This document shows positions 7,101 to 23,286 of a DNA stretch of 23,286 bases, in pieces. Position 1 is the first letter of the stretch. Every line of letters begins with the position of its first letter. This DNA comes from a virus: the IMG/VR virus record IMGVR_UViG_3300020195_000167, positions 1 to 23,286 of that record; one strand, given 5' to 3'. Position numbers and translations under genes: made by a program. The notes below the pieces were generated by a model. It was not told the DNA's origin. It saw nothing but the letters and a program-made list of their open reading frames with translations, and ran no database searches.

Positions 7101-7200
7101 TAAGGAGTTTCACTCCATCGGGGATCAAGTTTTCGATCTTATCAGCATACACTTCTTTGAATAAACCGTTCAGTGTAGTGACAGTATTAGGGGTTGACAT
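4171..7200 (-). CDS. Major capsid protein (N4 gp56-like), split by two group I introns
   Basis: The gene is three exons on the minus strand: 7200-7056, 6191-6179 and 5293-4171. Joined length is 1281 nt, coding for 426 residues with an intact frame. Exon 1 starts MSTPNTVTTLNGLFKEVYAD and ends ...KEIGNL plus one base. The splice restores IGNLYHQPVQLSHEHGITYA, the expected conserved MCP segment. Exon 3 continues with SQMLIRSQMSYEAAARAS and NSMAKRLEISMLYGRTNIG, typical of the N4-gp56 MCP family. AAAGGAAATAA lies before the ATG, and a late promoter motif lies 129 nt upstream at 7329-7340. A strong terminator follows. Unspliced RNA stops right after codon 48 (CTC TAA), so splicing is required for capsid synthesis. 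Exon 1 or the 4171-5181 frame taken alone would look like broken genes; they are not. Confidence 0.93.
5372..6073 (-). CDS. Intron-encoded HNH homing endonuclease
   Basis: This 233-residue protein has an N-terminal helix-turn-helix-like part (SCYKVAKRNNTSATAVKRLL, about 22-41). A NUMOD3-type stretch follows (GFKGKKHTEENKRKIGDL and GKRNPNYKDGK, about 87-119), then a classic HNH domain. In the HNH domain CHYC and CSKC are the zinc-binding pairs, HAHHRLPYW carries the catalytic histidine, and DNLVTVC the asparagine. It would cut intronless MCP alleles to spread its intron. The ATG follows GGCGGAATAA, an acceptable ribosome site. Its own promoter lies at 6102-6130 inside the intron. The last codons (SEDAIV, stop) overlap the intron core, tying protein and ribozyme together. 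Confidence 0.93.
   Translation of the reverse strand: MKKIAENIPLAKLIADYFELNSCYKVAKRNNTSATAVKRLLKEARVLRTQSDAASVRNKENPGYYERLHTPEIANKISVSRKDQISGFKGKKHTEENKRKIGDLAKERTGKRNPNYKDGKHIRRPRDFKIHELTPVRNRTFNRDNFTCHYCKLVGGHLHAHHRLPYWVKPEAFLDIDNLVTVCSKCHFKRAHNGNWHSFNKNLVNDALLTKYSLNRERLNDLTSDTKSEDAIV
6102..6130 (-). promoter_or_regulatory. Sigma70-like promoter inside intron 2, for the HNH gene
   Basis: The minus strand has TTGACT (6125-6130), a 17-nt spacer and TATAAT (6102-6107). The predicted start is near 6095, 22 nt before the HNH ATG. It would let the nuclease be made without transcription of the MCP. Confidence 0.65.
6179..6191 (-). other. 13-nt micro-exon (exon 2) of the MCP gene
   Basis: The minus strand reads ATCATCAACCCGT. 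With the last T of exon 1 and the first A of exon 3 it encodes Tyr-His-Gln-Pro-Val, the conserved YHQPV of the capsid family. It is preceded by a G (end of intron 1) and itself ends in T, as group I splicing needs. Confidence 0.88.
6401..6955 (-). CDS. Intron-encoded GIY-YIG homing endonuclease
   Basis: This 184-residue protein uses a TTG start (6953-6955) placed 8 nt after AAGGAA. The GIY-YIG core appears in divergent form: KVYLIKE at 5-11, IIYVGLTSQ at 17-25 and the arginine segment LSRRFSQH at 27-34. E63 of SVILEEMLIKQH is the likely catalytic glutamate region, and GFNVSP follows. A NUMOD3-like segment covers about 90-135 (KWSEERKGKKVSEEH and related). The C-terminal IIYKSAREAASKLHLQYSKI (about 145-165) is a NUMOD1-like DNA-binding helix. 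It lies wholly in intron 1 and is probably expressed from the consensus promoter at 7019-7047. Confidence 0.9.
   Translation of the reverse strand: MKNYKVYLIKETKSNNIIYVGLTSQPLSRRFSQHVSKRNLNRDEYKIELAQEYLTLNESVILEEMLIKQHNTRVTGFNVSPASINGYSNLHSEDQKNKWSEERKGKKVSEEHAAKNRIARLGQKNSPEHQAKIIRPKSVICIETGIIYKSAREAASKLHLQYSKISLVCNGLRNSTGNLHFKFV
7019..7047 (-). promoter_or_regulatory. Perfect-consensus sigma70 promoter inside intron 1
   Basis: The minus strand has TTGACA (7042-7047), a 17-nt spacer and TATAAT (7019-7024), both hexamers exact. Predicted start is about 7012, inside the guide sequence. RNA from here lacks the 5' splice site, so it could serve only as GIY-YIG mRNA and not for splicing. Confidence 0.8.
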
Positions 7201-7328
7201 AAATTATTTATTTCCTTTGAAAAGTTAAAATTAGAATTAGAATTATATTAACTTTGGATACCAAAGACTAGCTTTTACAGGGGTAGCTATTAACATCCCA
7301 TTCAAAGGGTCAAGGGTCTACTTGTTAT

Positions 7329-7340
7329 TATACTTATTAA
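7329..7340 (-). promoter_or_regulatory. Putative late promoter motif (copy 5), MCP
   Basis: The minus strand reads TTAATAAGTATA followed by ATAAC, 129 nt upstream of the MCP ATG. The leader has a small hairpin, CTTTGG-TAT-CCAAAG, at about 7256-7270. Confidence 0.6.
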
Positions 7341-7363
7341 AATGAGTATTTACGCGTATTTAC

Positions 7364-7392
7364 TTGACAAAATAGAAAATTTAAGTTATGAT
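7364..7392 (+). promoter_or_regulatory. Sigma70 promoter of the truncated HNH gene, leaderless type
   Basis: TTGACA (7364-7369), 17-nt spacer, TATGAT (7387-7392), then 6 nt to the ATG at 7399. No Shine-Dalgarno fits between, so translation from a leaderless mRNA is implied. A direct repeat GTATTTAC lies just upstream (7347 and 7357). Confidence 0.75.
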
Positions 7393-7398
7393 CATTAA

Positions 7399-7884
7399 AT
7401 GAAGCAATGTAAAAGGTGCAAACAAACCATGGTATTGACAGATTTTAGTGTAGATAACACTAAAGGGGATAGAAGGAACATATATTGTAAGCAATGTGTT
7501 AGAGCGTACCATCATAGCCATAAAGGGCCAATTTCTGATAATAAGAAGAATTATTATGAATTACATAAAGAAGAGATTAAGCAAAAGCGTAAGGAATATA
7601 GAAAATTTAATCCCGAAAAGATCAAATTAACTCAAAAAAAATATTATGAAGCCCATAAAGTAGAACTTAATGAATCAAGCAGCGAATATAGAAAAGACTG
7701 GCGGGAGAAAAACAAGCTAAAAATCAGGGAGCAGGCTAGGCTTTACTATCAAAAGCATAAAGAACGCATTTATGATTATAGACGAAAACGAGTGAAAACT
7801 GATATCCAGACTAGATTGGCACAGCGTCTTAGGTGTAGATTAAGAATTGCCAGGAAGAATAATCAGAAGAAAGGGGCCGCTTGA
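7399..7884 (+). CDS. Truncated HNH-type homing endonuclease (zinc ribbon and basic repeats only)
   Basis: This 161-residue protein starts MKQCKRCKQ and has a second pair in YCKQC at about 30-34. Together they form the CxxC...CxxC zinc ribbon that opens many phage HNH proteins. Four basic helical repeats follow (YYELHKEEIKQKRKEYR, YYEAHKVELNESSSEYR, LYYQKHKERIYDYR and similar). It ends in LRCRLRIARKNNQKKGAA. In related proteins a segment like LRxRLxxALKxNxKxGSA is followed by the DLGCS and HxDH/HNH catalytic part, which is missing here; the downstream bases do not restore it in frame. It is probably a decayed nuclease, or a DNA-binding protein derived from one. It stands alone on the plus strand between scaffold and MCP, opposite to the late genes. 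Confidence 0.75.
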   Translation: MKQCKRCKQTMVLTDFSVDNTKGDRRNIYCKQCVRAYHHSHKGPISDNKKNYYELHKEEIKQKRKEYRKFNPEKIKLTQKKYYEAHKVELNESSSEYRKDWREKNKLKIREQARLYYQKHKERIYDYRRKRVKTDIQTRLAQRLRCRLRIARKNNQKKGAA

Positions 7885-7911
7885 GGAGTATTAAGAAGGA
7901 GGGGAGAAATC

Positions 7912-8868
7912 TTACTTTAAATACTTATCGAACAGTTCTTGTTGAAAATCATCCATAGATTGTTTCTTCTTTGGTGATTTTTCATTTTCATGTGCTGATT
8001 TAGGAACTGGAACTTGTTCTGTTCTAGTTGGATTAGGAGGAGCCTTAGATTTAACCTTATTGACTTCATATTGTCGAATCTTCTTGAGCTGATCTTCGCC
8101 TAAGATCTTAAGGAGGTCTTCAACATCATAATGTCCAAACAAAGAACGATGTTCTTCTTCGAGATCTTGTCTAACTCGTGTTGCAACATCTAAAGCTGTG
8201 GCTTCATAACCATTTTCAAGGGCTGATGCCATATATTCAGCAATACGGGCAACCGTCTTTGGGTTCTTAGGTAATTTATATTTATCAATAGCTCCAATGA
8301 TTTCATCTTGAATGTCTGATTCATATTTAGATTGAAGTTTTGACATTTGTTGATCACGTTGTTCTTTGACCATCTCATCTTTTTCACTCTTAAGTCTTTG
8401 AATTTCTTGTTGAATTTCATGTCTCTCACGTTCATCAGGAGACATCATTTTCTTATTAGCTTCTTGAACGATAAAGTCTTCAGCTAATTTGCGAACATCT
8501 AACCCAAGGCTAGCAAGAGCTTTACCTGGGTCTCTTTGAATCAACTCAAGAACAGCTTCAGCTTTCTTACGAGTATTGGCCGCTTGTTCAAACTTTTCAT
8601 GTGCACCTAAACCAAGTTGAGCAAGACGAACTAATTCGCCTTCATCAGTAACTTCGCGTTCACGACCTTGTGATTTAAGTTTCCATTTCTTAATGGCGGC
8701 TTTAATTTCAGCTTCTGAAGGTTGTTTAGATTCTTGTGGGCTTATTACTTCAGCGATTTCGTTACCAACGTCTGCTGCATCTTGAAATGCGTCGTTAGAA
8801 CCGGTTGCTTCTTGTGCAACTTGTGTGGCATCTACTGGTGCTGATGGTGTGGAGGGTGTATCACTCAT
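7912..8868 (-). CDS. Capsid scaffolding protein
   Basis: This 318-residue protein sits just upstream of the MCP, the usual scaffold position. It is acidic, Gln/Glu-rich at the N-terminus (residues 1-60). A long predicted coiled-coil region rich in E/K/Q runs from about 130 to 190 (RERHEIQQEIQRLKSEKDEM). The C-terminal tail is short, lysine-rich and helical (SPKKKQSMDDFQQELFDKYLK). Scaffolds of tailed phages typically have such a helical body and a basic C-terminus that contacts the capsid protein. AAGGAATAATAT precedes the ATG. A late promoter motif lies 73 nt upstream. No protease signature was seen. The call rests on position and composition, not on sequence identity. Confidence 0.78.
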   Translation of the reverse strand: MSDTPSTPSAPVDATQVAQEATGSNDAFQDAADVGNEIAEVISPQESKQPSEAEIKAAIKKWKLKSQGREREVTDEGELVRLAQLGLGAHEKFEQAANTRKKAEAVLELIQRDPGKALASLGLDVRKLAEDFIVQEANKKMMSPDERERHEIQQEIQRLKSEKDEMVKEQRDQQMSKLQSKYESDIQDEIIGAIDKYKLPKNPKTVARIAEYMASALENGYEATALDVATRVRQDLEEEHRSLFGHYDVEDLLKILGEDQLKKIRQYEVNKVKSKAPPNPTRTEQVPVPKSAHENEKSPKKKQSMDDFQQELFDKYLK

Positions 8869-12428: not shown

Positions 12429-15400
12429 TTATTTGTTTACACCCGAAATCTCAGGAACTTGATTATCCATTGGATTCTTTGGTAAACTTGGCATAGTTAT
12501 ATTTGGAGCACCTTCTGGAACTGGAGCTTGCGGGCCTTCTGTTGGTGATGGTGGAGTTGGTCCGCCCATAGATGGACCACCGGGGGCTTCTGCGCCTTCA
12601 GGTCCACCTGGTCCAGGAGGCTGAGGAGGAGGAGCTAATGAAGGTTGCCCTAAAATATTAAGAAGGGCAGGGTCTGCAGTTTTAAGTTGTTGAATGTGGT
12701 CTTGGATATGTTGTAGCACAGCCTGAGTAACTTCTGCGTTCTCTCTAGCATCTGGAGAGGCAATAACTGTCTTATGTTCTTTAATATGAAGAACATGTTC
12801 ATCAAGAACAGTGACTGAAACGCCTTTACCTTCTGCAAGCTTTTCGTTTTCACCCTTAATAAGAGTTAATTCAGAAAGATCACCTTCAAGCATTTGATCA
12901 AGATTACCAGTCTTCATAACCATGATATAATCTTGAGCGTTCTTAATAATACCTTGTTGAAGTAAGTTGTTAGCCATTTCTAATTTACCAGCAGTTGTAT
13001 TATGAGTAACAGTGAAGTCTCCTAATACAAAATGCGGCTCTTCTTTTAAAGTAAATCCATAGTAAGTGCCCATTCCTGTGGATTTAATATCAATACTGTA
13101 ATTGAGGTGATTGCGAGCTTTAGTTTTCTTAATAGCCCGTTTACGAGCAATACGAGTGGGGATAGTCCAAGTATCGCCACCAATAGTAATCTTTTGATAC
13201 AACCCTTCTGTACCATTTTGTGATTTACTTTTAATCTCTTTGGTTGTAACTCTAAAACCTAATGACCTAGCTAAATATATGATGTCTTTACTAAGCTGTT
13301 TATTTTTTTGTGTAATTACAAAAGTTGTTTTAGAAACAAGAGAGCCGTCCGTATCTAAAAGACCGGCTAATAGTTCTAATCGGTTCTCAGCCGAGTTTAT
13401 CTTATATGATTGGGGAATATGTTTATTGTTAATAACGCCGAGATCTCTAAAGGCATTTAATGCATTATTTCGATCATTAGAACCGTGAGATTCGCCGCTT
13501 GTGATGAAATATACACTAGATTGATTATTGGGTTGAGATTGTACTCTTATATCATGCCCTATTACTTTAGCATAGTTGTACCATTCTTGGCGAATTTCTT
13601 CATCCATAGTAGTAATGGCGGTAGTATTTTGATGTCCATCGCCAAGCCATAAGCCCAATTGGTAAGCAGGAACTGTTACTGGTTTAGTTTCAAATTCAAC
13701 TCCAGTTCTAAAGCCCATGAATTTTTGTTGTTTCCCTTTAGGCCATAATAGAAATTCGCCGACAGAAATATCCACAATATCATATTGCTTGAGGCCGTAG
13801 CGTCCATCATTAGAGCAATATTTAAGAGATAAAATATGACTCTTATTACAGCCGTACACGAATTCACTATTAATTTTACTATGCGAAATATCAAACATTT
13901 CTTCTTGGCCGATTGAAACAGACTCAACTGTTCTAATCTTAGAATCAGGACCCATGATCACTTCACCAGTTACTATGTCTTGTACCTTCTTAATTGAGCC
14001 ATTATGCATAAGCACTTCAGTGTCAATTTTAAGACATTTAGATAAAGGATTACCCATATCTACAACTACACGACTAACTTTATCTAGATCATTTCCAGTA
14101 AACTCTCTCATATAAGAACGATTACTTTTACCAGCAATCATTGCTACTCTTGGTGTGGCAGCAAAATCCCTTAGAGTAGATAACGTGGCAGTACCAACGT
14201 CCTCTAATAGCTGCGCAAAGGATTGTTGTAGTCCAGAGTTAAATTGAATTGCCATTGATTGAATCAACGCAAGCGCGTTACCTGATCTTAAGTTGGCTTC
14301 AGGGTTACCTCTAGCAACAGAGTTGACCCCTGAGATAGTTTCCATTACTGATTCAATCTTATCAACAAATTGAAAGATTTCAGGAGGAGTCTTAGTTAAG
14401 TTAAGAGCTTCAGGTTTACCACCAGAAGACGGATCATATTCAATAACATTGAGACCACCAGGTAAGGATGAATAGGATATATTATGATTTTGTGGTATGA
14501 TAAGATTCTGCACACCGAAGGTGGATTGATTTGTAATGATGATTGAATAGAGACCGTCTAAAGTTTCTTGTAAACTTAAAAGATCAAACGCCACAGTATA
14601 ACCATGGGGTGTTCCAATGAAATCACCTGGGGCAATACGATAAACTGGGATATTTTTATAAGGAAGTGGGCCGTCATAAAGTACTGATTCCTTAGTAACA
14701 TAAACTACTTGTCGTCCATTAGGAAGAGCATCAGATCTACGATGATAGAATTCATACACTGGAACGAGATCAGATCTTAATTGACCATCAGATTTAAACT
14801 TATAGTTAAAAGTCATATCCATTTCATCTTTAGTTTTAGCTTTAAGAAGTTCTTCCTTAAGCTCTGGATATTTAGCAACTAATTCAAATCTATTCTTGAA
14901 ATGACGAATAATAATCCAGTCTTCGTCATTATTATCGGTTCTAAAAACATCTTTAATAACATCTATAGGATTAAGTACAGAATAGTTAATATCGCCAGTG
15001 AAAGTAATTTTATCAGATTCGGGGTCAACACTATATTCATCTCCTTGAGTTGTATCCCATTCCAGGCGAACATATCCTTCACCGAACACAAGAGCATGTT
15101 CAACTGCAAGCTTTAAATAACGCTCAAGTCGTTTTTCTCTCATATAATAATCAAGAATACCATTAGCTAAGATTGTTTGAGCCAATGAACGGTAATCGGT
15201 ATTGACCGCTCTAGCTTCCATTGCTGGTCGGCTAGAAGTAGTCATAACAAGTAAATGTTGTAGCAAGTTACGGAAATGATTAGCTTTAATTAAAGTAAGT
15301 TCACCTTGTTCGCCGGTCTTAATCATTTCAGATGATGTATGGCCAGCACCTGTTGAATTATAACCATAATAAGCAGCATAAGACTTACGCATCTTACGAT

Positions 15401-15533
15401 AAATACCTGAAGCTCCTAGGTTTTCATACCAGAGGTCCACATGCTTAGCTAGTTGTGAAGCTATCTCTTCTTTATCTAAAGTGGCCCAATAAATGTCTCG
15501 GTTACCGCCTTCATTTGAACTGTATTCATCCAT
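12429..15533 (-). CDS. Portal protein interrupted by an intein
   Basis: The precursor is 1034 residues; the mature portal after intein removal is 688. The N-terminal extein (1-499) has NHFRNLLQHLLVMTTSSRPAMEARA, LERYLKLAVEHALVFGEGYVRLEWD, NPIDVIKDVFR and a long central helix region (ETLDGLYSIIITNQS to VNSVARGNPEANLRSGNALAL), as in portals of short-tailed phages. The C-extein resumes TTAGKLEMANNLLQQG, so removing the intein rebuilds the continuous NPLSK-TTAGKLEMA segment. The tail is Pro/Gly-rich and probably disordered. AAAGGAATATC precedes the ATG, and a late promoter motif lies 29 nt upstream in the gap after terminase. The portal forms the DNA entry ring at the capsid vertex and partners with TerL. 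Confidence 0.9.
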   Translation of the reverse strand: MDEYSSNEGGNRDIYWATLDKEEIASQLAKHVDLWYENLGASGIYRKMRKSYAAYYGYNSTGAGHTSSEMIKTGEQGELTLIKANHFRNLLQHLLVMTTSSRPAMEARAVNTDYRSLAQTILANGILDYYMREKRLERYLKLAVEHALVFGEGYVRLEWDTTQGDEYSVDPESDKITFTGDINYSVLNPIDVIKDVFRTDNNDEDWIIIRHFKNRFELVAKYPELKEELLKAKTKDEMDMTFNYKFKSDGQLRSDLVPVYEFYHRRSDALPNGRQVVYVTKESVLYDGPLPYKNIPVYRIAPGDFIGTPHGYTVAFDLLSLQETLDGLYSIIITNQSTFGVQNLIIPQNHNISYSSLPGGLNVIEYDPSSGGKPEALNLTKTPPEIFQFVDKIESVMETISGVNSVARGNPEANLRSGNALALIQSMAIQFNSGLQQSFAQLLEDVGTATLSTLRDFAATPRVAMIAGKSNRSYMREFTGNDLDKVSRVVVDMGNPLSKCLKIDTEVLMHNGSIKKVQDIVTGEVIMGPDSKIRTVESVSIGQEEMFDISHSKINSEFVYGCNKSHILSLKYCSNDGRYGLKQYDIVDISVGEFLLWPKGKQQKFMGFRTGVEFETKPVTVPAYQLGLWLGDGHQNTTAITTMDEEIRQEWYNYAKVIGHDIRVQSQPNNQSSVYFITSGESHGSNDRNNALNAFRDLGVINNKHIPQSYKINSAENRLELLAGLLDTDGSLVSKTTFVITQKNKQLSKDIIYLARSLGFRVTTKEIKSKSQNGTEGLYQKITIGGDTWTIPTRIARKRAIKKTKARNHLNYSIDIKSTGMGTYYGFTLKEEPHFVLGDFTVTHNTTAGKLEMANNLLQQGIIKNAQDYIMVMKTGNLDQMLEGDLSELTLIKGENEKLAEGKGVSVTVLDEHVLHIKEHKTVIASPDARENAEVTQAVLQHIQDHIQQLKTADPALLNILGQPSLAPPPQPPGPGGPEGAEAPGGPSMGGPTPPSPTEGPQAPVPEGAPNITMPSLPKNPMDNQVPEISGVNK
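12999..14036 (-). mobile_element. Intein with LAGLIDADG endonuclease in the portal protein
   Basis: The intein is residues 500-845 of the precursor (346 residues). Block A is CLKIDTEVLMHNGSIKKV, starting with the nucleophilic Cys500. A block B-like segment is VYGCNKSHILSL with a conserved His. The endonuclease motifs are YQLGLWLGDGH (about 624-634) and LLAGLLDTDGSL (721-732), the two LAGLIDADG helices. Block F/G is YYGFTLKEEPHFVLGDFTVTHN, ending His844-Asn845, and the +1 extein residue is Thr. All splicing residues are present, so it is probably active. The insertion lies in the conserved NPLSK/TTAGK segment of the portal. Confidence 0.94.
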
Positions 15534-15561
15534 GAGATATTCCTTTAATTCTATTGCTTAT

Positions 15562-15573
15562 TATACTTATTAA
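15562..15573 (-). promoter_or_regulatory. Putative late promoter motif (copy 2), portal
   Basis: The minus strand reads TTAATAAGTATA followed by ATAAG. It is in the 46-bp gap between the terminase stop and the portal start. Confidence 0.6.
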
Positions 15574-15579
15574 TAACCT

Positions 15580-17073
15580 CTAATCCTTTTTTTCAGAATT
15601 TCCAGGGAAAAAACGAGCCATTGGTATAGATACCAGCTTTTCAAAGTTTTTATTAGTTTGGCTTTTACCTGATTCTGGTGGTAAATACATACACTCAATT
15701 TCAAGCCCAAGTCCTGGTGGATAAGGATTACGGCTACGTTGAATATTACGAACCATATAGATCAATGCTGCAATAAGGTCAAAGTGACCTTGATCTGCGG
15801 ATCTTGCAAATTTCTTACGTGAAGAGTCCCAGGTGGCTGACTGGAGTTGAGATATAAGATTAACGCATCTGGGGTGGATTCGTATCTTATTATCAGCTAC
15901 AGATAACCTGGCGGCGTTTACAGAGGCTTCTAGTTCATCTCTACGAGTCTGGCTAAATGCAAGTTTATGTGTACTATTTAAGTCACTAATAGTAATTAAA
16001 TCCCCGTCACAGTAGCGTTGATATGGTTTTTTACCATTCCAAAGGGTCATTTCCTTTTGAGTTATTACATTACTAATCATCTGGGTATTAGGTTTATTAA
16101 ACATTGCTTCATCTTCAATGACTAAATAGGCATTATAAAAATCATAATAACCGAATAAAATCCCGGTGTTATCTGTATATCCTAAATCTGCAACAGTGTA
16201 TGCATCAAAGAATGCAGGTTTCATGATCTGCCCTACATCTAATTGTTGTCCAGGGTTATAGGGAACGATATCTTTAATTAGATCTTTTAATTTAACTTCA
16301 GTTGCCTCAGGGATAACCGCTTCATTTTCATCAATGATGAATTCGGCCAAGAACTCTCGTCTCCAGGCTACGCTATCTTCGCCACCAGCTTCTTGTTTAT
16401 ATTGTTCTCGAACCTTCTCAGTGATCAAAGGGTTATCATATATAGTTTTCTTAATATAATTACCATCTAATTTAGCCTTTTCTGCTATTTTTTTGAATGG
16501 ATGTGCTGGAGAGATGGGAGGGGTTGAGGAAAGAATAATCTTACCATTGACTGTAATTGTAAGTGGGCGAAGAATACTTGAGATAACATAATCAAGTTTA
16601 TCCATAAAGCCAGCTTCATCACAGATAACTAAGTGAAATACTTGACCTCTAAGGTTCTCAGCGCGTTCAGCATCGGTACCTGCTATATGTATTTCTGATC
16701 CATTCTTGAATATATAAACTTGATCATTTACTCTATAACCGGGAAGTAGTTCTCTAGGGCAATCACTTAATATTTCTTTAATGCGAGGAATAATAATCTT
16801 TTTTACAGCCTTAGCCGTTGGAGCTAGATAACATATCTTAGCCCCAGGGTGTTGTAGGGCGTACTCAATTGAATAACCAGATAGGAGGAACGATTTTCCA
16901 ATTTGCCTTGAACAATTGATTACAAACGTAGAACCAGTGGTATTATTAATAGCTTCGTAGATATCTAATTGAGTTTGATGAAATTTCCACGAGACAATGC
17001 CCATATGCCAGAGTTTCTTAATAGAATCCTCTTGGCTTATAACTAATTTATCAGGTTTATTTTCCGTTGTCAT
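15580..17073 (-). CDS. terL: Terminase large subunit
   Basis: I chose the ATG at 17071-17073 (MTTENKPDKL) because GAGGT lies 10 nt upstream; this gives 497 residues. The ATPase domain has a Walker A-like CSRQIGKS at 54-61, a Walker B VFHLVICDEAG at 145-155 with D152/E153, and a coupling motif IILSSTPP near 175-185. The C-terminal nuclease half contains FDAYTVADLGYTDNTGILFG (first acidic cluster), RYCDGD and a late GHFDLIAALIYMV with the final aspartate, as expected for an RNase H-like nuclease. It overlaps the upstream small gene by 17 bp. TerL packages phage DNA through the portal. The separate large and small subunits and the next-door portal fit a standard packaging module. Confidence 0.95.
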   Translation of the reverse strand: MTTENKPDKLVISQEDSIKKLWHMGIVSWKFHQTQLDIYEAINNTTGSTFVINCSRQIGKSFLLSGYSIEYALQHPGAKICYLAPTAKAVKKIIIPRIKEILSDCPRELLPGYRVNDQVYIFKNGSEIHIAGTDAERAENLRGQVFHLVICDEAGFMDKLDYVISSILRPLTITVNGKIILSSTPPISPAHPFKKIAEKAKLDGNYIKKTIYDNPLITEKVREQYKQEAGGEDSVAWRREFLAEFIIDENEAVIPEATEVKLKDLIKDIVPYNPGQQLDVGQIMKPAFFDAYTVADLGYTDNTGILFGYYDFYNAYLVIEDEAMFNKPNTQMISNVITQKEMTLWNGKKPYQRYCDGDLITISDLNSTHKLAFSQTRRDELEASVNAARLSVADNKIRIHPRCVNLISQLQSATWDSSRKKFARSADQGHFDLIAALIYMVRNIQRSRNPYPPGLGLEIECMYLPPESGKSQTNKNFEKLVSIPMARFFPGNSEKKD

Positions 17074-17305
17074 TGGATGGATTACCTCTAGCAGCTCTGA
17101 GTAATTCAATTAGATCAGATGGAGCAGAAGGAGAGGAAACTGGAGATGAACTTGCACTAGAATTAGCTGCAGACTTTATCTTAAAAAGAATTTCTAGACA
17201 TCTAAGGTCATCATAATCAAGACCACAATTAGCTTCTTTATCATATAAACGTGAGATACATGAGATTAATATAGACTCTATCTTGACGTCTGTCTCTTGC
17301 GCCAT
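17057..17305 (-). CDS. Small protein upstream of terL, candidate terminase small subunit
   Basis: It has 82 residues from the ATG at 17303-17305. The longer TTG start at 17332 would overlap the gene above and lacks a ribosome site. The first half is helical (VKIESILISCISRLYDKE, LDYDDLRCLEILFKIK). The second half is Ser/Ala/Pro-rich and ends in SDLIELLRAARGN. No helix-turn-helix is obvious. Position and small size suggest the terminase small subunit, but the sequence alone does not prove it. It overlaps terL, indicating coupled translation. Confidence 0.55.
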   Translation of the reverse strand: MAQETDVKIESILISCISRLYDKEANCGLDYDDLRCLEILFKIKSAANSSASSSPVSSPSAPSDLIELLRAARGNPSNDNGK

Positions 17306-17306
17306 A

Positions 17307-17624
17307 TTATTTTTGTACGTTTCTGAATCCAATTGATGCTGCTATACCAGCTAATTTATCTTGGATGTTTTGGACTTTAGTTTGCATTTCAGTAAGAGTT
17401 ACTTTACTGTCATCTGTAAGTTTAGTTCTTTTAGATTGAACATGCCGTTTACCGTAGTACAAAGCAAGAGTGATTAACAGTGCGCCCATATCAGTAACGC
17501 TGGGTTCGCTAGCCATAGCTACTTTATAAAGAACTACCATACATGCAATATGCGTAATAGATAAAAGACCTTCATCGTCTGTAAGTCTTACAAAGTATAA
17601 AGCTTTTTTAATAAAATTATTCAT
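17307..17624 (-). CDS. Small phage membrane protein, possible holin
   Basis: It has 105 residues from the ATG at 17622-17624, just past the previous stop (TAATATG). Two hydrophobic stretches, LLSITHIACMVVLYKVAMA (about 20-38) and MGALLITLALYYGKRH (about 46-60), are joined by a short SEPSVTD turn. The C-terminal helix is charged (LTEMQTKVQNIQDKLAG). Small proteins of this two-helix type, with a DxGALLxxLAxYxxKR segment, often lie beside phage packaging or lysis genes. A holin role is possible but unproven. The ribosome site is weak (CGGTAAATAAT), so it probably depends on coupling to the gene upstream. Confidence 0.6.
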   Translation of the reverse strand: MNNFIKKALYFVRLTDDEGLLSITHIACMVVLYKVAMASEPSVTDMGALLITLALYYGKRHVQSKRTKLTDDSKVTLTEMQTKVQNIQDKLAGIAASIGFRNVQK

Positions 17625-18670: not shown

Positions 18671-18871
18671 TTATTCCTTATTTAAGATTCGTTGTTTAGT
18701 AATTTCATAAGTCGATTTCACAAAGAACTTCGTACCACTTTGCATGGTAATCTGAGTGCAGCCCAACTGGCCTAATTTATCTAGGTCAACTAACACTTCT
18801 ACTCGTTCTGGATCAAGACTAACAAGACCACTGGATTTACTATCAAATACATCAAATTCAATTAGTTTCAT
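18671..18871 (-). CDS. Small phage protein, possibly FlbD-like
   Basis: This 66-residue protein overlaps the gene upstream by 4 bp (ATGA), so translation is coupled. Residues 15-55 (GLVSLDPERVEVLVDL, then TQITMQSGTKFFVKSTYEI) follow a pattern of one strand with an Ile/Val-Asp turn, then a Thr-x-Ile-x-Met-x-Ser-Gly strand pair. The same pattern is seen, more clearly, in its neighbour. Both resemble the small FlbD-type fold that recurs in phages. Similarity is weak and judged by eye. No function can be assigned. Confidence 0.6.
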   Translation of the reverse strand: MKLIEFDVFDSKSSGLVSLDPERVEVLVDLDKLGQLGCTQITMQSGTKFFVKSTYEITKQRILNKE

Positions 18872-19056
18872 AAAACGTTATTAGCTCCAATTAGTTTAAG
18901 GACTTCATCAACACTAAGATTAACCTTATGAATTCCTTGGGTTAACTGAATCAATGTGTAATTGTCAGACATTGGGTCTTGTCTGATGTCACATATATTT
19001 TCAATATTAAAGTATATCTCAGATCCATTAAGTAATATAATCTTTTTTATCTTCAT
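18868..19056 (-). CDS. Small FlbD-like phage protein, first gene of the leftward early operon
   Basis: It has 62 residues. The sequence KIKKIILLNGSEIYFNIENI, DNYTLIQLTQGIHKVNLSVDEVLKLI has the layout of FlbD-type proteins: an opening strand with LNG, a middle strand ending in a Gly turn, and a final SVDEVxxxI helix. In flagellated bacteria FlbD relatives act as flagellar regulators or accessory proteins. Phage versions are uncharacterised, so the name is only structural. There is no Shine-Dalgarno; the -10 of its promoter ends 6 nt before the ATG. The protein starts exactly where related proteins start, which supports this ATG and a leaderless mRNA. Confidence 0.65.
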   Translation of the reverse strand: MKIKKIILLNGSEIYFNIENICDIRQDPMSDNYTLIQLTQGIHKVNLSVDEVLKLIGANNVL

Positions 19057-19062
19057 GTATAC

Positions 19063-19091
19063 AATATAGCAAATATCTTAATATTTGTCAA
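19063..19091 (-). promoter_or_regulatory. Leftward sigma70 promoter, leaderless type
   Basis: The minus strand has TTGACA (19086-19091), a 17-nt spacer and TATATT (19063-19068), then 6 nt to the ATG. It drives the three-gene operon that ends at the 18367 terminator. Confidence 0.78.
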
Positions 19092-19103
19092 TAATATTAT
19101 TGA
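19088..19103. promoter_or_regulatory. Perfect 16-bp palindrome between divergent promoters, likely operator
   Basis: TCAATAATATTATTGA is its own reverse complement. It overlaps both -35 elements (19086-19091 leftward, 19100-19105 rightward) in a symmetrical way. One bound dimer would block or modulate both promoters. Confidence 0.6.
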
Positions 19104-19128
19104 TTTATTATAAGTGATATGGTATAGT
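19100..19128 (+). promoter_or_regulatory. Rightward sigma70-like promoter, leaderless type
   Basis: TTGATT (19100-19105), 17-nt spacer, TATAGT (19123-19128), then 6 nt to an ATG at 19135. It would start the plus-strand chain of very small reading frames. Confidence 0.6.
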
Positions 19129-19134
19129 ATTCAT

Positions 19135-19286
19135 ATGAACAGATGGACCGGAAATGCTTATTAAAGAGATCAGGAGAATGGTTTGAAGTCTTTCCATTAT
19201 AAAATATTGACCTTAAAACGAACACAATTGACTTATACGAGGTTTTCACAATGAGTTTGCTATCTAGAGCCTTCTTATATGAATAA
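19135..19286 (+). other. Leader chain of four tiny overlapping reading frames
   Basis: Starting at the predicted transcription start, four short frames each overlap the next: 19135-19164 (9 residues), 19154-19186 (10 residues), 19183-19254 from TTG (23 residues, with TGA overlapping the next ATG) and 19251-19286 (11 residues). They have weak or partial ribosome sites (GGACCGGAA; CGAGGTTTTCACA before 19251). They could be a leader that passes ribosomes down the transcript, decayed members of the microprotein family, or chance. None can be called a gene from sequence alone. Confidence 0.3.
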
Positions 19287-19335
19287 ACAGATCAATGACA
19301 CCTTATGGGTAGTTATCTTTGGTGCCAACCAATGA
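19279..19335 (+). CDS. 18-residue frame coupled to the microprotein array, probable remnant
   Basis: The frame reads MNKQINDTLWVVIFGANQ. Its QINDTLW segment lines up with QLNDVIW near the C-terminus of the array proteins that follow, in protein and partly in DNA. It therefore looks like the tail of a decayed array member. Its stop overlaps the ATG of the first full microprotein (ATGA). Confidence 0.35.
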   Translation: MNKQINDTLWVVIFGANQ

Positions 19336-19475
19336 TCTTCCTATTGAACAATTTAGGTAATTATACTTATTGGGTCTATAAGAGCAATAATGACTATATC
19401 TATGGTTATACAGGTTATAATATATTCATAACTAGAGACAACCAATTGAATGATGTAATATGGAGGCTACTATGA
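19332..19475 (+). CDS. Tyr-rich microprotein 1 (tandem array, type A)
   Basis: It has 47 residues: MIFLLNNLGNYTYWVYKSNN, then YGYTGYNIFITRDNQLNDVI, then WRLL. A hydrophobic start is followed by a Tyr/Gly-rich middle and a DNQ-NDVIW end, suggesting two small beta hairpins. Nothing resembles a signal peptide cleavage site. Its last codons (TGG AGG CTA CTA TGA) contain the GGAGG ribosome site of the next member and overlap its ATG. The gene is below usual annotation length limits. The family is not recognised; protein status is supported by conservation across five tandem copies. Confidence 0.6.
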   Translation: MIFLLNNLGNYTYWVYKSNNDYIYGYTGYNIFITRDNQLNDVIWRLL

Positions 19476-19606
19476 TCTTCCTATTGGACAAGTTAGGTTA
19501 TTATGGTTATTGGATTAATAAAGACTATAACTATGGTTATACAGGTTATAATATATTATTAGCCAGAGACATAAACAATAAGGTAATATGTTGGTATGAG
19601 CTATGA
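19472..19606 (+). CDS. Tyr-rich microprotein 2 (type B)
   Basis: It has 44 residues: MIFLLDKLGYYGYWINKDYN, YGYTGYNILLARDINNKVIC, WYEL. It keeps the family frame FLLxxLGxYxYW, YGYTGYNI and a final aromatic ending, while differing from type A in WINK and in the WYEL end. The start has GGAGG 5 nt upstream inside gene 1. Its stop overlaps the ATG of member 3. Differences from member 1 lie within an unbroken frame, which argues for selection on protein. Function unknown. Confidence 0.6.
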   Translation: MIFLLDKLGYYGYWINKDYNYGYTGYNILLARDINNKVICWYEL

Positions 19607-19752
19607 AGCTACTATTGGGCAATTTAGGTAGTTATGGTTATTGGGTCTATAAAGACTTTGATCCTTATTATGGTTTTGAGGGTTATACAGGTTATAATAT
19701 ATTCATAACTAGAGACAACCAATGGAGTGATGTAATATGGAGGCTACTATGA
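19603..19752 (+). CDS. Tyr-rich microprotein 3 (type A)
   Basis: It has 49 residues: MKLLLGNLGSYGYWVYKDFD, PYYGFEGYTGYNIFITRDNQ, WSDVIWRLL. It matches member 1 in WVYK and YNIFITRDNQ...DVIWRLL, but carries a slightly longer middle (PYYGFEG). The extra codons are whole triplets, so the frame is preserved. Its ribosome site is weak (TATGAGCT), so translation probably relies on termination-reinitiation from member 2. It ends with GGAGG and the ATGA overlap to member 4. Confidence 0.6.
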   Translation: MKLLLGNLGSYGYWVYKDFDPYYGFEGYTGYNIFITRDNQWSDVIWRLL

Positions 19753-19889
19753 TCTTCCTATTGGACAATTTAGGTTATTATGGTTATTGGATTAATAAAG
19801 ACTATAACTATGGTTATACAACAGGTTATAATATAATATTAGACAGAGGCAACCAATTGAATGATGTAATATGGCGGTATGAGCTATGA
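19749..19889 (+). CDS. Tyr-rich microprotein 4 (type B)
   Basis: It has 46 residues: MIFLLDNLGYYGYWINKDYN, YGYTTGYNIILDRGNQLNDV, IWRYEL. The first 24 codons are nearly identical to member 2, including WINKDYNYGYT, while the end mixes the type A NQLNDVIWR with the type B YEL. One extra Thr codon (ACA) is inserted in frame. The A-B-A-B order shows that a two-gene unit of about 275 bp was duplicated. It overlaps member 5 by ATGA. Confidence 0.6.
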   Translation: MIFLLDNLGYYGYWINKDYNYGYTTGYNIILDRGNQLNDVIWRYEL

Positions 19890-20026
19890 ACTTCCTATTG
19901 AACAATTTAGGTAATTATACTTATTGGGTCTATAAGGGCAATAAGGACCATAGTGATTATATAACCATAGTATTACACATATACACTGATGACCTGGGTA
20001 TTAATGTAATATGGAAACTACGATGA
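19886..20026 (+). CDS. Tyr-rich microprotein 5 (divergent, last full member)
   Basis: It has 46 residues: MNFLLNNLGNYTYWVYKGNK, DHSDYITIVLHIYTDDLGIN, VIWKLR. The first 17 residues copy member 1 (LLNNLGNYTYWVYK). The middle has lost YGYTGYN and diverged, but the NVIWKLR end is kept. Its stop overlaps another ATG (20023) that opens only a 7-codon frame, where the chain ends. A TTG-started 65-codon frame on the other strand overlaps it and is not considered real. Confidence 0.55.
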   Translation: MNFLLNNLGNYTYWVYKGNKDHSDYITIVLHIYTDDLGINVIWKLR

Positions 20027-20113
20027 CCCTTATTGGTCCCGGTTAATGCTAACATAGTTATACATGGGCCCAGTTCACACCAGGATGCCCTATACGCATA
20101 CTTTATATAATAT

Positions 20114-20160
20114 CTAGGGTTTAGTATGCCGGCACATCTAAGTGCAACCTGCAACCCTAG
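20114..20160. repeat. Inverted repeat CTAGGGTT / AACCCTAG
   Basis: Eight-base arms are separated by 31 nt. It has no T-run, so a terminator is unlikely. The loop is long and the structure may be weak. Confidence 0.35.
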
Positions 20161-20186
20161 TTAGCTTATTATTTAATAATGCACAT

Positions 20187-20336
20187 TGTAAACTCTATGC
20201 TGGTGCCAGTTGGCCGTATGGGCCTTGGTTAATGTAAATTCTACATAGGTTACGTTTCTATATGCCAGCTGCCAGCGGTCTGCAGTTAATGTTATCTGTA
20301 AACTCTACATTGGTATATCTGTAAACTCTACATTGG
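20187..20336 (+). repeat. Four iteron-like 17-bp direct repeats
   Basis: TGTAAACTCTACATTGG and close variants occur at 20187, 20233, 20297 and 20320; the last two are identical. All face the same way, and most are preceded by TTAATG or ATCTG. Direct repeats of this size in a non-coding region can bind a replication initiator or a regulator. The TGTA...TACA ends give each a partial dyad. Confidence 0.6.
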
Positions 20337-20425
20337 CGCTCCCGTGTACTGCCAACATTAAACTTTGTAACTATACCCTCTGACCCCAAAGGGGGTGTTA
20401 AACGTCAGTTAGTTGACGATTAACT

Positions 20426-20441
20426 TGGCACGCTTCTTGCA
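20426..20441 (+). promoter_or_regulatory. Sigma54-like promoter 1
   Basis: TGGCACGCTTCTTGCA fits the RpoN consensus TGGCACG-N4-TTGCA exactly, with 10 bp between GG (20427-20428) and GC (20439-20440). Confidence 0.65.
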
Positions 20442-20500
20442 TATATGCTGTAAATCGTCAGATAATTGACGATTTACTGTCTGATAATTGACGCTAATGT

Positions 20501-20516
20501 TGGCATGCTTCTTGCA
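20501..20516 (+). promoter_or_regulatory. Sigma54-like promoter 2
   Basis: TGGCATGCTTCTTGCA, one change from consensus, GG-N10-GC spacing kept. A CGTCA/TGACG-type palindrome ends 8 bp upstream of the GG. ACACCCTAATG follows, as it does after copy 3. Confidence 0.65.
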
Positions 20517-20626
20517 GGTAAACACCCTAATGACCAATAGTTGACGGTCACCGTTAGATGGTTGACGGTTAGCTGCCCCCTTGCAAGAACTATGCCAAGC
20601 AAATCGTTAGTTAGTTGACAGAATCT

Positions 20627-20642
20627 TGGCACGATTCTTGCA
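20627..20642 (+). promoter_or_regulatory. Sigma54-like promoter 3
   Basis: TGGCACGATTCTTGCA, exact consensus at both elements with GG-N10-GC. A palindrome copy ends at 20620. Followed by the same ACACCCTAATG as copy 2. Confidence 0.65.
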
Positions 20643-20658
20643 GGGGGACACCCTAATG

Positions 20659-20862
20659 GTTAGCAGGCAAGCCGTTAGCAGGCAAGCTGTTAGCTGTTAG
20701 CTGTTAGCTTGGCAGTAGGCAAGCTGTTTACGGGCGAGTGGTAGCCGTTGCCTAGCAAACAGGGTATCTGTGAGCTGTTAGCTGTGAGCTGCTTTCTGTT
20801 ATCTGTGAGCTGTTAACAGGGTATCTGTGAGCTTTAGCTTGGTATCTGTTAGCTTTAGCTGC
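20659..20862 (+). repeat. Degenerate GTTAGC / GGTATCTGTGAGCT repeat tract
   Basis: GTTAGCAGGCAAGC occurs twice (20659, 20674), then CTGTTAG runs, then three units of the GGTATCTGTKAGCT type separated by TTTAGCT or TTAGCT. The tract has a minisatellite look consistent with slippage. No frame through it looks coding. Confidence 0.6.
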
Positions 20863-21016
20863 TCTCGTGGTTATATATAGGTACCATAGGATCTAAGATA
20901 GATAAGTCTGTTTAGTGAAGAGGACATTGGTTATAAGGGATAAGGCTCATAATTGGTGGATTTGGACAATAATGAGTCTTCTAATATGCTGATATCATTG
21001 GTTGATTCATAAGTAG

Positions 21017-21047
21017 TTGATATTACAGGGACCATAATTGCTATAAT
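21017..21047 (+). promoter_or_regulatory. Possible extended -10 promoter
   Basis: TGCTATAAT (21039-21047) is an exact extended -10; a TTGATA lies 19 nt upstream, slightly too far. It could serve the gene at 21216. Confidence 0.35.
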
Positions 21048-21115
21048 GAATCTGGGTATCTGATATGAATAGAGTTAAGTGGTTGATATGCTTATGAAAG
21101 TTAGTTCAGGGTGTT

Positions 21116-21131
21116 TGGCATCAAACTTGCA
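21116..21131 (+). promoter_or_regulatory. Sigma54-like promoter 4, upstream of the first Ala-rich gene
   Basis: TGGCATCAAACTTGCA keeps GG (21117-21118), N10 and GC (21129-21130). Predicted start near 21141, 75 nt before the ATG at 21216. It lacks a clear palindrome copy next to it. Confidence 0.5.
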
Positions 21132-21215
21132 TTAGATAACTACATGATGCACATTTTGACAGCCTACTTAGTATACAGAGTTTTAAAGTTCATTTGCAGA
21201 TAATTAGGAGAATAT

Positions 21216-21554
21216 ATGAATAACACTAAAGAAATAACCACTAAAGATAAAGTTTGGATTGCTCTTAATCTTATGCCTAGAGGATTAGTTGAAGCTTTTG
21301 CTATGGATTGTGCTTCTAGGGCTTCTGCTTATAACCCTTCTTTCGGTGTTTACGCTGCTTCTGCCGCTTTATCCACTCAAACCCTTAACTCTAACGAATT
21401 GGCTTGTATGGCTGCCTATTATGTAGCTACTTCTACGGCTGACGCTGCTTTAGCCTCTTTATCGAAATCCTCCTATGCTGACATGATTAATGCTGTAGCT
21501 AATGAATATGATATGCAATTGAAGTCTATTGCTCAATTAAACAAAGGAATTTAA
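21216..21554 (+). CDS. Ala-rich paralogous protein 1 (short form)
   Basis: It has 112 residues, with AGGAG 5 nt before the ATG. The N-terminal EITTKDKVWIALNLMPRGLV, EAFAMDCASRASAY and the C-terminal QLKSIAQLNKG are shared with the proteins at 22192 and 22640. Between them lies an Ala/Ser/Tyr-rich helical stretch, less regular here than in the others. The conserved DKxWxAxxLMPxxLVxxFAxDCASRAS part resembles the helical region of phage proteins that precede YAA-type repeats (some annotated as immunity-like). That link is weak. The middle may form an amphipathic or solenoid-like helix bundle. Function unknown. Confidence 0.72.
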   Translation: MNNTKEITTKDKVWIALNLMPRGLVEAFAMDCASRASAYNPSFGVYAASAALSTQTLNSNELACMAAYYVATSTADAALASLSKSSYADMINAVANEYDMQLKSIAQLNKGI

Positions 21555-21562
21555 ATAGCAGC

Positions 21563-21591
21563 TTGACATTGTTTGTATGAGCTGAGATAAT
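21563..21591 (+). promoter_or_regulatory. Sigma70 promoter of duplicated cassette, copy 1
   Basis: TTGACA (21563-21568), 17-nt spacer, GATAAT (21586-21591). The block from GTTTGTATGAGCTGAGATAA through the AGAGGTGA ribosome site is repeated almost base for base before 22192. Confidence 0.8.
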
Positions 21592-21637
21592 AGTATTAAG
21601 AGGTGAATATATGAAACACAATGAAGGAGTAAATAAC

Positions 21638-21907
21638 ATGATGACCGAAAAACAACAAATTCAAATCCTTGAAAATGGCAATGTTACAGAATATAGTGAG
21701 CGTGAACTAGAGGAACAATACCGCGATATGCTTGATGATGTATACGGTGAGAGTGATATCTGCGGATATAAATACCCAGCAAGCAGAGCGTTAGCTGATA
21801 TTGACCCTATTGCCTTCCGGGAAGGTCTGCTTGAGTATACTAGTTCAGAAACAGTTATGATTGAAGATCGCTATTTTAACAAGGATGAGGCTGATATGCT
21901 TCTTTAA
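21638..21907 (+). CDS. Conserved phage hypothetical protein
   Basis: It has 89 residues from the ATG at 21638 (MMTEKQQIQILENG). AAGGAG lies 9 nt upstream and the same ribosome-site block precedes the next gene. A second possible start at 21611 (98 residues) has its own AGAGGTGA site from the promoter cassette, so both may be used. The core EYSERELEEQYRDMLDDVYG, ESDICGYKYPASRALADIDP, IAFREGLLEY is a pattern I know from many phage and prophage hypothetical proteins (a YxxMLDxxYGxxxICGxxYxxSxALxxxDPIAxRxG signature). Their function is unknown. It is acidic and probably cytoplasmic. Confidence 0.78.
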   Translation: MMTEKQQIQILENGNVTEYSERELEEQYRDMLDDVYGESDICGYKYPASRALADIDPIAFREGLLEYTSSETVMIEDRYFNKDEADMLL

Positions 21908-21928
21908 TTGAATGAAGGAGTAAATAAC

Positions 21929-22123
21929 ATGAAGTCAAATAAAGACTTTCTGGAAACCACAATCACTGACCAAGGTACTAAAACGATCATGGTTAAGTTT
22001 CGAGACAAACTCACAGGGGTTTATGTCTATGATAAGAAGGTATCAAGAGCGTTACTGGCGAAGATGTATCACGATAGAGCTGTGAGTCATGTTCTTAATG
22101 GTGTGCCGGTTATTGATATCTAG
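21929..22123 (+). CDS. Unrecognised 64-residue protein
   Basis: I chose the ATG at 21929 (MKSNKDFLETTITDQGTKTI) because AATGAAGGAGTAAATAAC lies before it. The longer frame begins with a TTG inside that ribosome site. It is basic in the second half (KVSRALLAKMYHDRAVSH) and ends NGVPVIDI. It has no membrane span or motif I recognise. It starts 21 bp after the previous stop and shares that gene's ribosome-site block, so the two form one small operon. Confidence 0.65.
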   Translation: MKSNKDFLETTITDQGTKTIMVKFRDKLTGVYVYDKKVSRALLAKMYHDRAVSHVLNGVPVIDI

Positions 22124-22143
22124 TTAGCATTAAAAATAGCCCC

Positions 22144-22172
22144 TTGACTTTGTTTGTATGAGCTGAGATAAT
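22144..22172 (+). promoter_or_regulatory. Sigma70 promoter of duplicated cassette, copy 2
   Basis: TTGACT (22144-22149), 17-nt spacer, GATAAT (22167-22172), followed by the AGAGGTGA ribosome site and ATG at 22192. Nearly identical to the copy at 21563 over about 45 bp. Confidence 0.8.
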
Positions 22173-22191
22173 AGTATTAAGAGGTGAATGT

Positions 22192-22638
22192 ATGAATATG
22201 AATATGACGAATAAAACTAAAGAAATAACCACTGAAGATAAAGTTTTGATTGCGCTTAAGCTTATGCCTGTAAACTTAGTTGAAAGGTTTGCCCTTGAAT
22301 GCTCCTCTAGAGCTTCTGCTTATGCGGCTAAGGCTTCTACTTATGCAGCTAAGTCTTCTAATTATTATGATGCTTCTGATGCAGCTGTCGCTGCTTCTTA
22401 TGCAGCTAAGGCTGCCTCTCTCGCTTCTTATGTTCAAGATGCTCCTGATACTCTCACTGCTGCTAAGGCTGCTTCTTATGCTGCTTCTTATGCTGCTGAC
22501 GCTGCTGATCTCGCTTCTTATGTTCAAGTTACTTCTGATACTCTCTCCGCTGCTCATGCTGCCGCTGATCTCGCTTCTGCTGAAGAACAGGATTTACAAT
22601 TGAAGTCTATTGCTCAATTAATCAAAGGAAGTAAATAA
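22192..22638 (+). CDS. Ala-rich paralogous protein 2
   Basis: It has 148 residues, counted from the first of three closely spaced ATGs (22192, 22198, 22204); AGAGGTGA favours the first. The N-terminal head is KEITTEDKVLIALKLMPVNL, VERFALECSSRASAY. A long low-complexity body of YAAK, YAAS, DAAD and LASYVQ units follows, with an internal duplication (LASYVQxxxDTLxAA twice). The conserved tail is DLQLKSIAQLIKGSK. Alanine is coded mostly by GCT, so the DNA is repetitive and two other frames stay open by chance. The body is likely one long helix or helical bundle with a regular Ala face, as in alanine-rich antifreeze-like or coiled proteins; this is speculation. Confidence 0.78.
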   Translation: MNMNMTNKTKEITTEDKVLIALKLMPVNLVERFALECSSRASAYAAKASTYAAKSSNYYDASDAAVAASYAAKAASLASYVQDAPDTLTAAKAASYAASYAADAADLASYVQVTSDTLSAAHAAADLASAEEQDLQLKSIAQLIKGSK

Positions 22639-22639
22639 C

Positions 22640-23149
22640 ATGAAAATCAAAGTAAATAGTGATATTATTAAATCATTACTTCCTTGCGAAGATAGACTGG
22701 TTAATTATCTTAAACATTACAATGAGTTAAACTTTGATATTCTAGAATTCCTGGCTCTGGACAAAATAACCACTGAAGATAAAATCTGGGTATCAGTTAG
22801 ACTCATGCCTAAAGAATTAGTTCAAAGGTTTGCTATGGATTGTGCCTCTAGGGCTTCTACTTATGCAGCTAAGTCTGTTAATGCTACTTATGCTGCTCAA
22901 GCTGTTTCTCATGCTTCTTATGCTGCTTCTTATCCTGGTCGCATTGATCTCTTTGCTTATGACGCTGCTTATTATGCTGATCTCGCTGCTTATGATGCTG
23001 CTTATGCTTCTGATCTCGCTGCTTATGATGCTTCTTATGCTCAAGGTGCTTCTGATACTCTCACTGCTGCTACTGCTGATACTGCTTCTGCTGAAGAACG
23101 AGAATTGCAATTGAAGTCTATTGCTCAATTAATTGAAGAAAGTAAATAG
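22640..23149 (+). CDS. Ala-rich paralogous protein 3 (long form with extra N-terminal domain)
   Basis: It has 169 residues. It begins 1 bp after the previous stop with AAAGGAAG as ribosome site. It has an extra N-terminal part absent from copies 1 and 2 (MKIKVNSDIIKSLLPCEDRL, VNYLKHYNELNFDILEFLAL). Then comes the shared head ITTEDKIWVSVRLMPKELVQ, RFAMDCASRAST, and an Ala/Tyr/Asp body (YDAAYYADLAAYDAAYASDL) of about 8-residue repeats. The shared tail is ELQLKSIAQLIEESK. The N-terminal part (CxDRLxNYLxHY) resembles phage proteins annotated as putative immunity-like with a C-x-x-R start. The next copy starts at 23202 with nearly the same DNA. Confidence 0.78.
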   Translation: MKIKVNSDIIKSLLPCEDRLVNYLKHYNELNFDILEFLALDKITTEDKIWVSVRLMPKELVQRFAMDCASRASTYAAKSVNATYAAQAVSHASYAASYPGRIDLFAYDAAYYADLAAYDAAYASDLAAYDASYAQGASDTLTAATADTASAEERELQLKSIAQLIEESK

Positions 23150-23153
23150 CTAC

Positions 23154-23182
23154 TTGACATTATCAATAGTATCTGAGATACT
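23154..23182 (+). promoter_or_regulatory. Sigma70 promoter before Ala-rich copy 4
   Basis: TTGACA (23154-23159), 17-nt spacer, GATACT (23177-23182), then the same GAGGTGAATGT ribosome-site block and ATG at 23202. The upstream half differs from the other two cassettes. Confidence 0.7.
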
Positions 23183-23201
23183 ATATATAAGAGGTGAATG
23201 T

Positions 23202-23286
23202 ATGAAAATCAAAGTAAATAGTGATATTATTAAATCATTAACTCCATGTAAAGATAGACTGGTTAATTATCTTAAACATTACAATG
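23202..23286 (+). CDS. Ala-rich paralogous protein 4 (N-terminus only, runs off window)
   Basis: The first 28 codons are in the window (MKIKVNSDIIKSLTPCKDRL, VNYLKHYN). They match copy 3 at all but a few bases, showing a recent duplication of the long form. GAGGTG precedes the ATG. The rest is beyond the right edge, so the body and tail cannot be judged. Confidence 0.8.
   Translation, partial: MKIKVNSDIIKSLTPCKDRLVNYLKHYN

Follow-up and report, generated by a model that had tools for sequence, protein, structure and literature searches.

A tandem microprotein array in a phage fragment as a patch of a putative family of short, self-coupling gene cassettes

Five tandem microprotein genes on a 23-kb phage fragment, taken in an earlier note as a local and self-contained array, have counterparts at many places in the genomes of a phage group, and the balance of the genome comparison favours reading the array as one patch of a phage family of short microprotein cassettes that couple themselves to neighbouring genes. 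Somewhat more firmly, these units are likely to be insertable cassettes with built-in coupling, a reading that draws on sequence comparison. Most of them encode a microprotein of 35-60 residues behind a shared N-terminal motif. The window discussed below is the whole stretch analysed, an IMG/VR record of 23,286 bases.

Layout and setting of the array

The array and its surroundings contain the following features.

18868-19056, minus strand: 62-aa neighbouring ORF, the positional anchor for the array in relatives
19091-19063, minus strand: promoter-like site TTGACA-17-TATATT facing the structural operon, from a consensus scan only
19100-19128, plus strand: promoter-like site TTGATT-17-TATAGT facing the array, from a consensus scan only
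19251-19286, plus strand: 11-residue ORF MSLLSRAFLYE, first link of the chain, with GAGG upstream; probable truncated copy
19279-19335, plus strand: 18-residue ORF MNKQINDTLWVVIFGANQ, with the start ATGAATAA and an ATGA overlap onto A1; probable truncated copy
19332-19475, plus strand: microprotein gene A1, 47 aa
19472-19606, plus strand: microprotein gene B1, 44 aa; GGAGG supplied by Trp-Arg codons of A1
19603-19752, plus strand: microprotein gene A2, 49 aa
19749-19889, plus strand: microprotein gene B2, 46 aa; GGAGG supplied by Trp-Arg codons of A2
19886-20026, plus strand: microprotein gene A3, 46 aa; N-terminal half A1-like, tail different
20023-20046, plus strand: 7-residue ORF MTLIGPG, last link, with an ATGA overlap with the A3 stop; probable remnant

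The five ORFs of 44-49 aa form an ATGA-joined chain spanning 19332-20026 on the plus strand, and the head-to-tail arrangement in the earlier note is confirmed, each start overlapping the prior stop by 4 nt. Such stop-start overlap occurs at every joint in the window, as in a coupled gene chain, and the layout is indeed suited to translational coupling. When the very short ORFs at either end are counted, the full chain has eight links and runs from 19251 to 20046; the extent first given, 19279-20046, already took in the 18- and 7-residue ORFs and missed only the 11-residue ORF at 19251-19286, which has a family-like beginning (MxxLL...Y) and overlaps the next ORF by 8 nt. These very short end ORFs would be truncated copies that still serve as links.

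The proposed A-B-A-B-A' order, with duplication of a two-gene unit, is supported by a 140-nt block at 19404-19543 that is repeated at 19681-19820 (98% identity, offset 277 nt) and by the first 67 nt of A3, which are 94% identical to A1. Whole-codon insertions and deletions separate the copies, and the GGAGG sites formed by Trp-Arg codons (TGG AGG) lie at the A1-B1 and A2-B2 joints, both as described before. The reported signatures FLLxxLGxYxYW, YGYTGYN and DVIW are present but are not carried by all five genes, as A3 is without YGYTGYN and has NVIW, while B1 has VICW. An inverted pair at 19807-19821 and 19957-19971, matching at 14/15 nt, lies between B2 and the A3 tail, and a small inversion or template switch may have contributed to this tail.

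The array comprises the first genes past a divergent intergenic region, on the strand opposite the structural operon. The promoter-like sites in this region (19063-19128) are no more numerous than in shuffles and are thus weak evidence. After the array comes a repeat-rich stretch without long ORFs (20050-21200), and similar stretches follow the arrays of two relatives, G001 and G002. Beyond it, consecutive paralogous ORFs with Ala/Ser/Tyr-rich repeats occupy 21216-23286 on the plus strand, several of them preceded by near-perfect TTGACA/GATAAT-like promoters; their G002 homologue (14051-14350) is without the long repeat. Two structural genes of the window carry insertions of other kinds. The portal gene (12429-15533, minus strand) contains an intein, an in-frame insertion bearing Hint and LAGLIDADG domains, which the G001 and G002 portals do not have. 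The major capsid gene (4171-7200, minus strand) is interrupted: an HNH ORF and a GIY-YIG ORF separate its N-terminal piece (7054-7200) from the remainder (4171-5181). The G001 capsid gene is uninterrupted, and no group I or II intron reached the Rfam gathering score.

Related phages and the coding status of the frames

Relatives were retrieved via terminase, portal and AAA-protein searches. They include G001 (IMGVR_UViG_3300028666_000028, 84.9 kb) and G002 (IMGVR_UViG_3300020596_000100, 25.5 kb), whose terminases are 76% and 72% identical to that of the window, together with near-identical strains of G002. The closest GenBank terminase, from a Silvanigrella phage, is 29% identical, and GTDB contained no terminase relative. 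The 62-aa neighbouring ORF has counterparts at G001 17148-17333 and G002 16993-17274 (blastp E 2e-7 and 5e-11), beside which lie a chain of 12 ORFs in G001 (L002 7320 down to 5201), two of them only about 20 codons long, and a chain of three in G002 (L005 6679 down to 6246), each on the strand opposite the structural genes.

The chain of five ORFs in the window was reached by 0/1000 dinucleotide shuffles, which do not model duplication, and each of the diverged G001 and G002 chains was likewise reached by 0/1000. In a rough simulation whose branch lengths are our own estimates, 76 unconstrained substitutions left all five window frames open in 0.3% of runs. Pairwise dN/dS between the window copies is about 1 (0.73-2.29), and the purifying selection expected earlier from values clearly below 1 did not appear; taken alone, the window shows conservation of frame, not of residues. 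Coding is nevertheless well supported by the 12- and 3-ORF chains, which are homologous open frames at the equivalent place in related genomes. The array ORFs are thus almost certainly translated genes, judging from these comparisons, in agreement with the earlier claim that they are real. A non-coding tandem DNA or RNA repeat, open by chance, would fit the strong DNA repeat of the window and the dN/dS near 1, yet the diverged chains of the relatives are equally open and have an amino-acid motif in common, and no Rfam family or structured RNA match was found in the array; this explanation is scarcely credible.

The common motif links the chains across considerable divergence. A position matrix built from the G001 array alone ranked the three genes of G002 1, 2 and 4 of 712 starts, and on the window it ranked four of the five genes 2, 4, 5 and 8 of 1150 starts. 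A profile built from the window genes alone did not recover the genes of the relatives, which only the N-terminal model recovers.

A genome-wide family with a constant N-terminus

A whole-genome scan of G001 identified about 29 members, with several chains lying between ordinary genes.

G001 1062-2924: chain around an FGE-sulfatase-like gene, directly before a helicase
G001 6680-8348: chain around a PilZ gene
G001 14948-17067: syntenic chain, counterpart of the window array
G001 60307-62165: chain, with further single copies elsewhere in the genome

Two additional members precede the same helicase directly in G002. At thresholds giving 28 matches in the real G001 genome, shuffled genomes gave 0; because these members were also the training set of the scan model, the shuffles serve as a control, not an independent count. 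Three motif matches (G001 18774+ and 53334-, G002 18115+) were left out by judgement; the first of these lies within a conserved gene as an internal reading frame.

The family motif is M-N-x-L-x-x-Q-[LF]-[GN]-Y-x-Y, followed by a later Trp. These first 12 residues and the Trp are conserved, while length and sequence in between vary freely. Leu-4 is encoded by CTA, TTA, CTT, CTC and TTG across members, which indicates that the residue is kept, not the DNA. The AlphaFold2 model of A1 has a helix-strand-strand-strand order (pLDDT 80, pTM 0.56), and a diverged G001 member is also modelled as alpha-beta-beta-beta, with low confidence (pLDDT 68). In the predicted shared fold, the N-terminal helix and first strand would be conserved and the middle hypervariable, with the Trp placed in the last strand.

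Change within the family can be rapid. One cassette differs between G002 and the nearly identical L026 by six amino-acid changes, 0 silent changes and one lost codon, against 27 changes over 6564 nt of flanking genes; six replacement to zero silent changes is by itself no proof of positive selection, and it is the local rate that is notable. The G002 helicase (L022:791-2767, minus strand) contains an intein-like insert of ~164 residues that is absent in the near-identical L026 (9103-10587). Tails also differ between members. The terminal stretch of the G001 member at 60495-60686 resembles the N-terminal region of the capsid protein (E about 1e-6), so tails can apparently be acquired from other genes. 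No DNA identity indicating recent movement was found between distant members. A 186-residue G001 member (L017:16310-16870 / L002:6563-7123, minus strand) has a long Gln-rich tail behind a normal N-terminal motif, and the FGE-sulfatase-fold gene (L017:1208-1834, minus strand; Pfam E 1.5e-39) is embedded in a G001 cassette chain. The FGE-sulfatase fold is a frequent target of diversity-generating retroelements.

Fixed joints and stop-bearing starts

An ORF just upstream is present for 34/39 members, and 29 of these 34 overlap it by either 4 nt (16 members) or 8 nt (13 members). Among ordinary ORFs of the same phages, 9/82 overlap by 4 nt, and 8 nt is absent from the listed gap classes. These joints arise because the start sequences themselves hold stop codons for other frames. 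Starts with stops in both other frames are ATGAATGA, ATGAATAA, ATGATTGA, ATGAGTGA, ATGACTAA and GTGAATAG, and cassettes often begin with ATGAATGA or ATGAATAA; the window copies begin with ATGA, which supplies the first stop but not the second. Both off-frame stops fall within eight bases of the start in 22/34 members outside the window versus 10/118 ordinary ORFs. As residues 2-3 had helped to choose the members, the count was repeated with members chosen on residues 4-12 only, giving 21/34 versus 24/712, although the same members had supplied the matrix for this re-selection. Joint and double stop depend on each other, because an open frame running into a start of this kind is bound to terminate in it.

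A rival explanation holds that these are ordinary fast-evolving accessory genes, host-takeover or counter-defence microproteins, that were tandem-amplified in operons with normal short overlaps, their double-stop starts merely reflecting a Met-Asn-Glu/Lys N-terminus and their insertability being ordinary phage recombination only. The clear tandem duplication in the window and the rapid amino-acid change agree with it, prokaryotic genes often overlap by 4 nt (PMC6728339), and codon 2 favours AAT over AAC to a degree that lies within genome usage. The Met-Asn-Glu/Lys motif could itself be the driver of both joint and double stop. Against this stand the frequent -8 overlaps, the recurrence of the ANT pattern, source of the second stop, despite variation of residue 2 among Asn, Ile, Ser and Thr, and a copy inside a polymerase gene, described below, and we regard the rival as rather unlikely.

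The exactness of the joints, which even remnants of 7-18 codons retain, and the dN/dS of about 1 could instead point to cis-acting couplers or spacers that tune the output of downstream genes, with the peptide itself of little import. This is very improbable, since synonymous codons preserve the amino acids of the N-terminal motif, members have a predicted fold in common, and what comes after the window, 12-ORF and G002 chains is repeat-rich sequence, not an ordinary gene joined closely to them.

Copies inside and between other genes

The cassette reading gains from a member that splits a conserved gene. L023 (IMGVR_UViG_3300031772_002210, 9.1 kb) holds five members, one of which (7914-8060, MNELCKQFGYKYF...) interrupts the gene of the family-B DNA polymerase and divides it in two, an arrangement also known from homing endonuclease inserts. 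The N-terminal part (6440-7921) aligns at 72% to residues 4-488 of the uninterrupted G001 polymerase and stops within the cassette start, overlapping it by 8 nt, and the C-terminal part begins within the cassette end and aligns at 56% to G001 residues 490-708. The break falls directly before the SGDTDG motif. As a one-piece polymerase gene would be the usual form, insertion in L023 is likelier than loss in G001; this gene-splitting cassette is the one known case and comes from a single contig. No nuclease domain was detected in the insert with Pfam, and a GIY-YIG origin found no support, profile comparison with the GIY-YIG proteins of the window being negative. Placement between genes is seen in G001, where a 55-residue member lies between two genes that directly overlap in G002.

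Searches against known families

Searches by blastn and tblastn against 50,697 phage records found no relative, and Pfam, PHROGs, NCBIfam, PADLOC and viral models, as well as the PDB searched by sequence and by fold, returned no convincing match. Across 32 members, no known family scored above the cut-off in several of them; the single weak matches, DUF5370 (0.0012), REase_II (0.0027) and RapZ (0.0091), each in one of 32 members, were taken as chance, as were PDB sequence matches to sticholysin (E 0.35). The sole PDB fold match, ADAR2 dsRBM2, was not significant (E 6.9, probability 0.07). The A1 model shares the helix-strand-strand-strand order of this dsRNA-binding domain but is without the second helix of the alpha-beta-beta-beta-alpha fold, and a dsRNA-binding domain was rejected. 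A first degenerate DNA pattern retrieved only short unrelated frames from IMG/VR, and a second recovered L023; the single pattern match in GTDB, a 23-codon frame, was rejected.

No convincing counter-defence match was found in Pfam, PHROGs, PADLOC, NCBIfam or the PDB, where PADLOC covers defence systems and many counter-defence proteins are without a model. These searches likewise gave no link to any defence system, and no description of such cassettes was found among the open-licence papers searched.

Comparison with known systems

Homing endonuclease insertion in T4-like phages, with nrdA and gene 43 among the split genes, offers the closest precedent. In these phages, free-standing homing endonuclease genes have been inserted as mobE in Aeh1 nrdA and as seg43 in gene 43 of phage 25, gene 43 of 44RR carries the untranslated insertion IC-UTS, and some of the endonuclease genes have starts overlapping the stop of the gene before, with possible translational coupling (PMC2988022). 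Like these inserts, the cassettes are promoter-less and can split a conserved phage gene, with family-B DNA polymerase genes affected in both systems. They differ in that T4-like inserts are nuclease-encoding or untranslated, whereas no nuclease domain was detected in the roughly 48 residues that the cassettes encode, and the cassettes exist as tens of diverged copies with starts that hold stops for both other frames.

Phage small accessory proteins, among them anti-CRISPR and other host-interaction proteins (PMC11323111), are likewise short, variable and without annotated homologues. The cassette products stand apart as one family that can be recognised by its shared N-terminal motif, by the tens of copies in a single genome and by the fixed -4/-8 joints. 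In the bacteria and archaea tested, termination-reinitiation occurs through ATGA overlaps (PMC6728339); the cassettes have such overlaps too, and in some cases the upstream gene contains the Shine-Dalgarno sequence. They depart from this coupling in that 8-nt overlaps (13) are as frequent as 4-nt ones (16) and in that many cassette starts serve both upstream frames.

Proposed mechanism and significance

By analogy with known stop-start coupling, an upstream ORF would run into the cassette start and terminate within the start codon, where the ribosome would restart. Each cassette would thereby bring its own coupling and need no promoter, and termination with restart at its start would allow duplication, loss, chaining and placement between or inside genes with coupling kept. 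Tandem duplication and recombination would raise the copy number, and the sequence behind the constant N-terminal element would diversify; cassettes may move by recombination at short repeated junctions. At the window locus, a two-gene unit would have been duplicated just past the divergent intergenic region, so that several variants could come from one mRNA.

A site past a divergent intergenic region and opposite the structural genes is a common place for early host-directed genes. This position would suit small host-directed proteins and makes host or defence targets plausible, including for the inhibitors suggested earlier, though we would put such targets at slightly less than an even chance. 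More tentatively still, the cassettes may represent a new class of element: promoter-less units whose start doubles as a stop for other frames, which couple themselves between or inside genes, reach tens of copies, exchange tails and form an evolvable library of host-directed proteins.

Phage small proteins are numerous and mostly unexplained, and many members of this family fall below common gene-length cut-offs, so that annotation could miss them. The N-terminal motif together with the -4/-8 joint would provide a simple signature for seeking the same design elsewhere. If the proposal is true, a phage could add and diversify small proteins without breaking its operons, and building the stop of an old gene into the start of a new one would give phages a path to the birth of genes, their splitting and the diversification of effectors.
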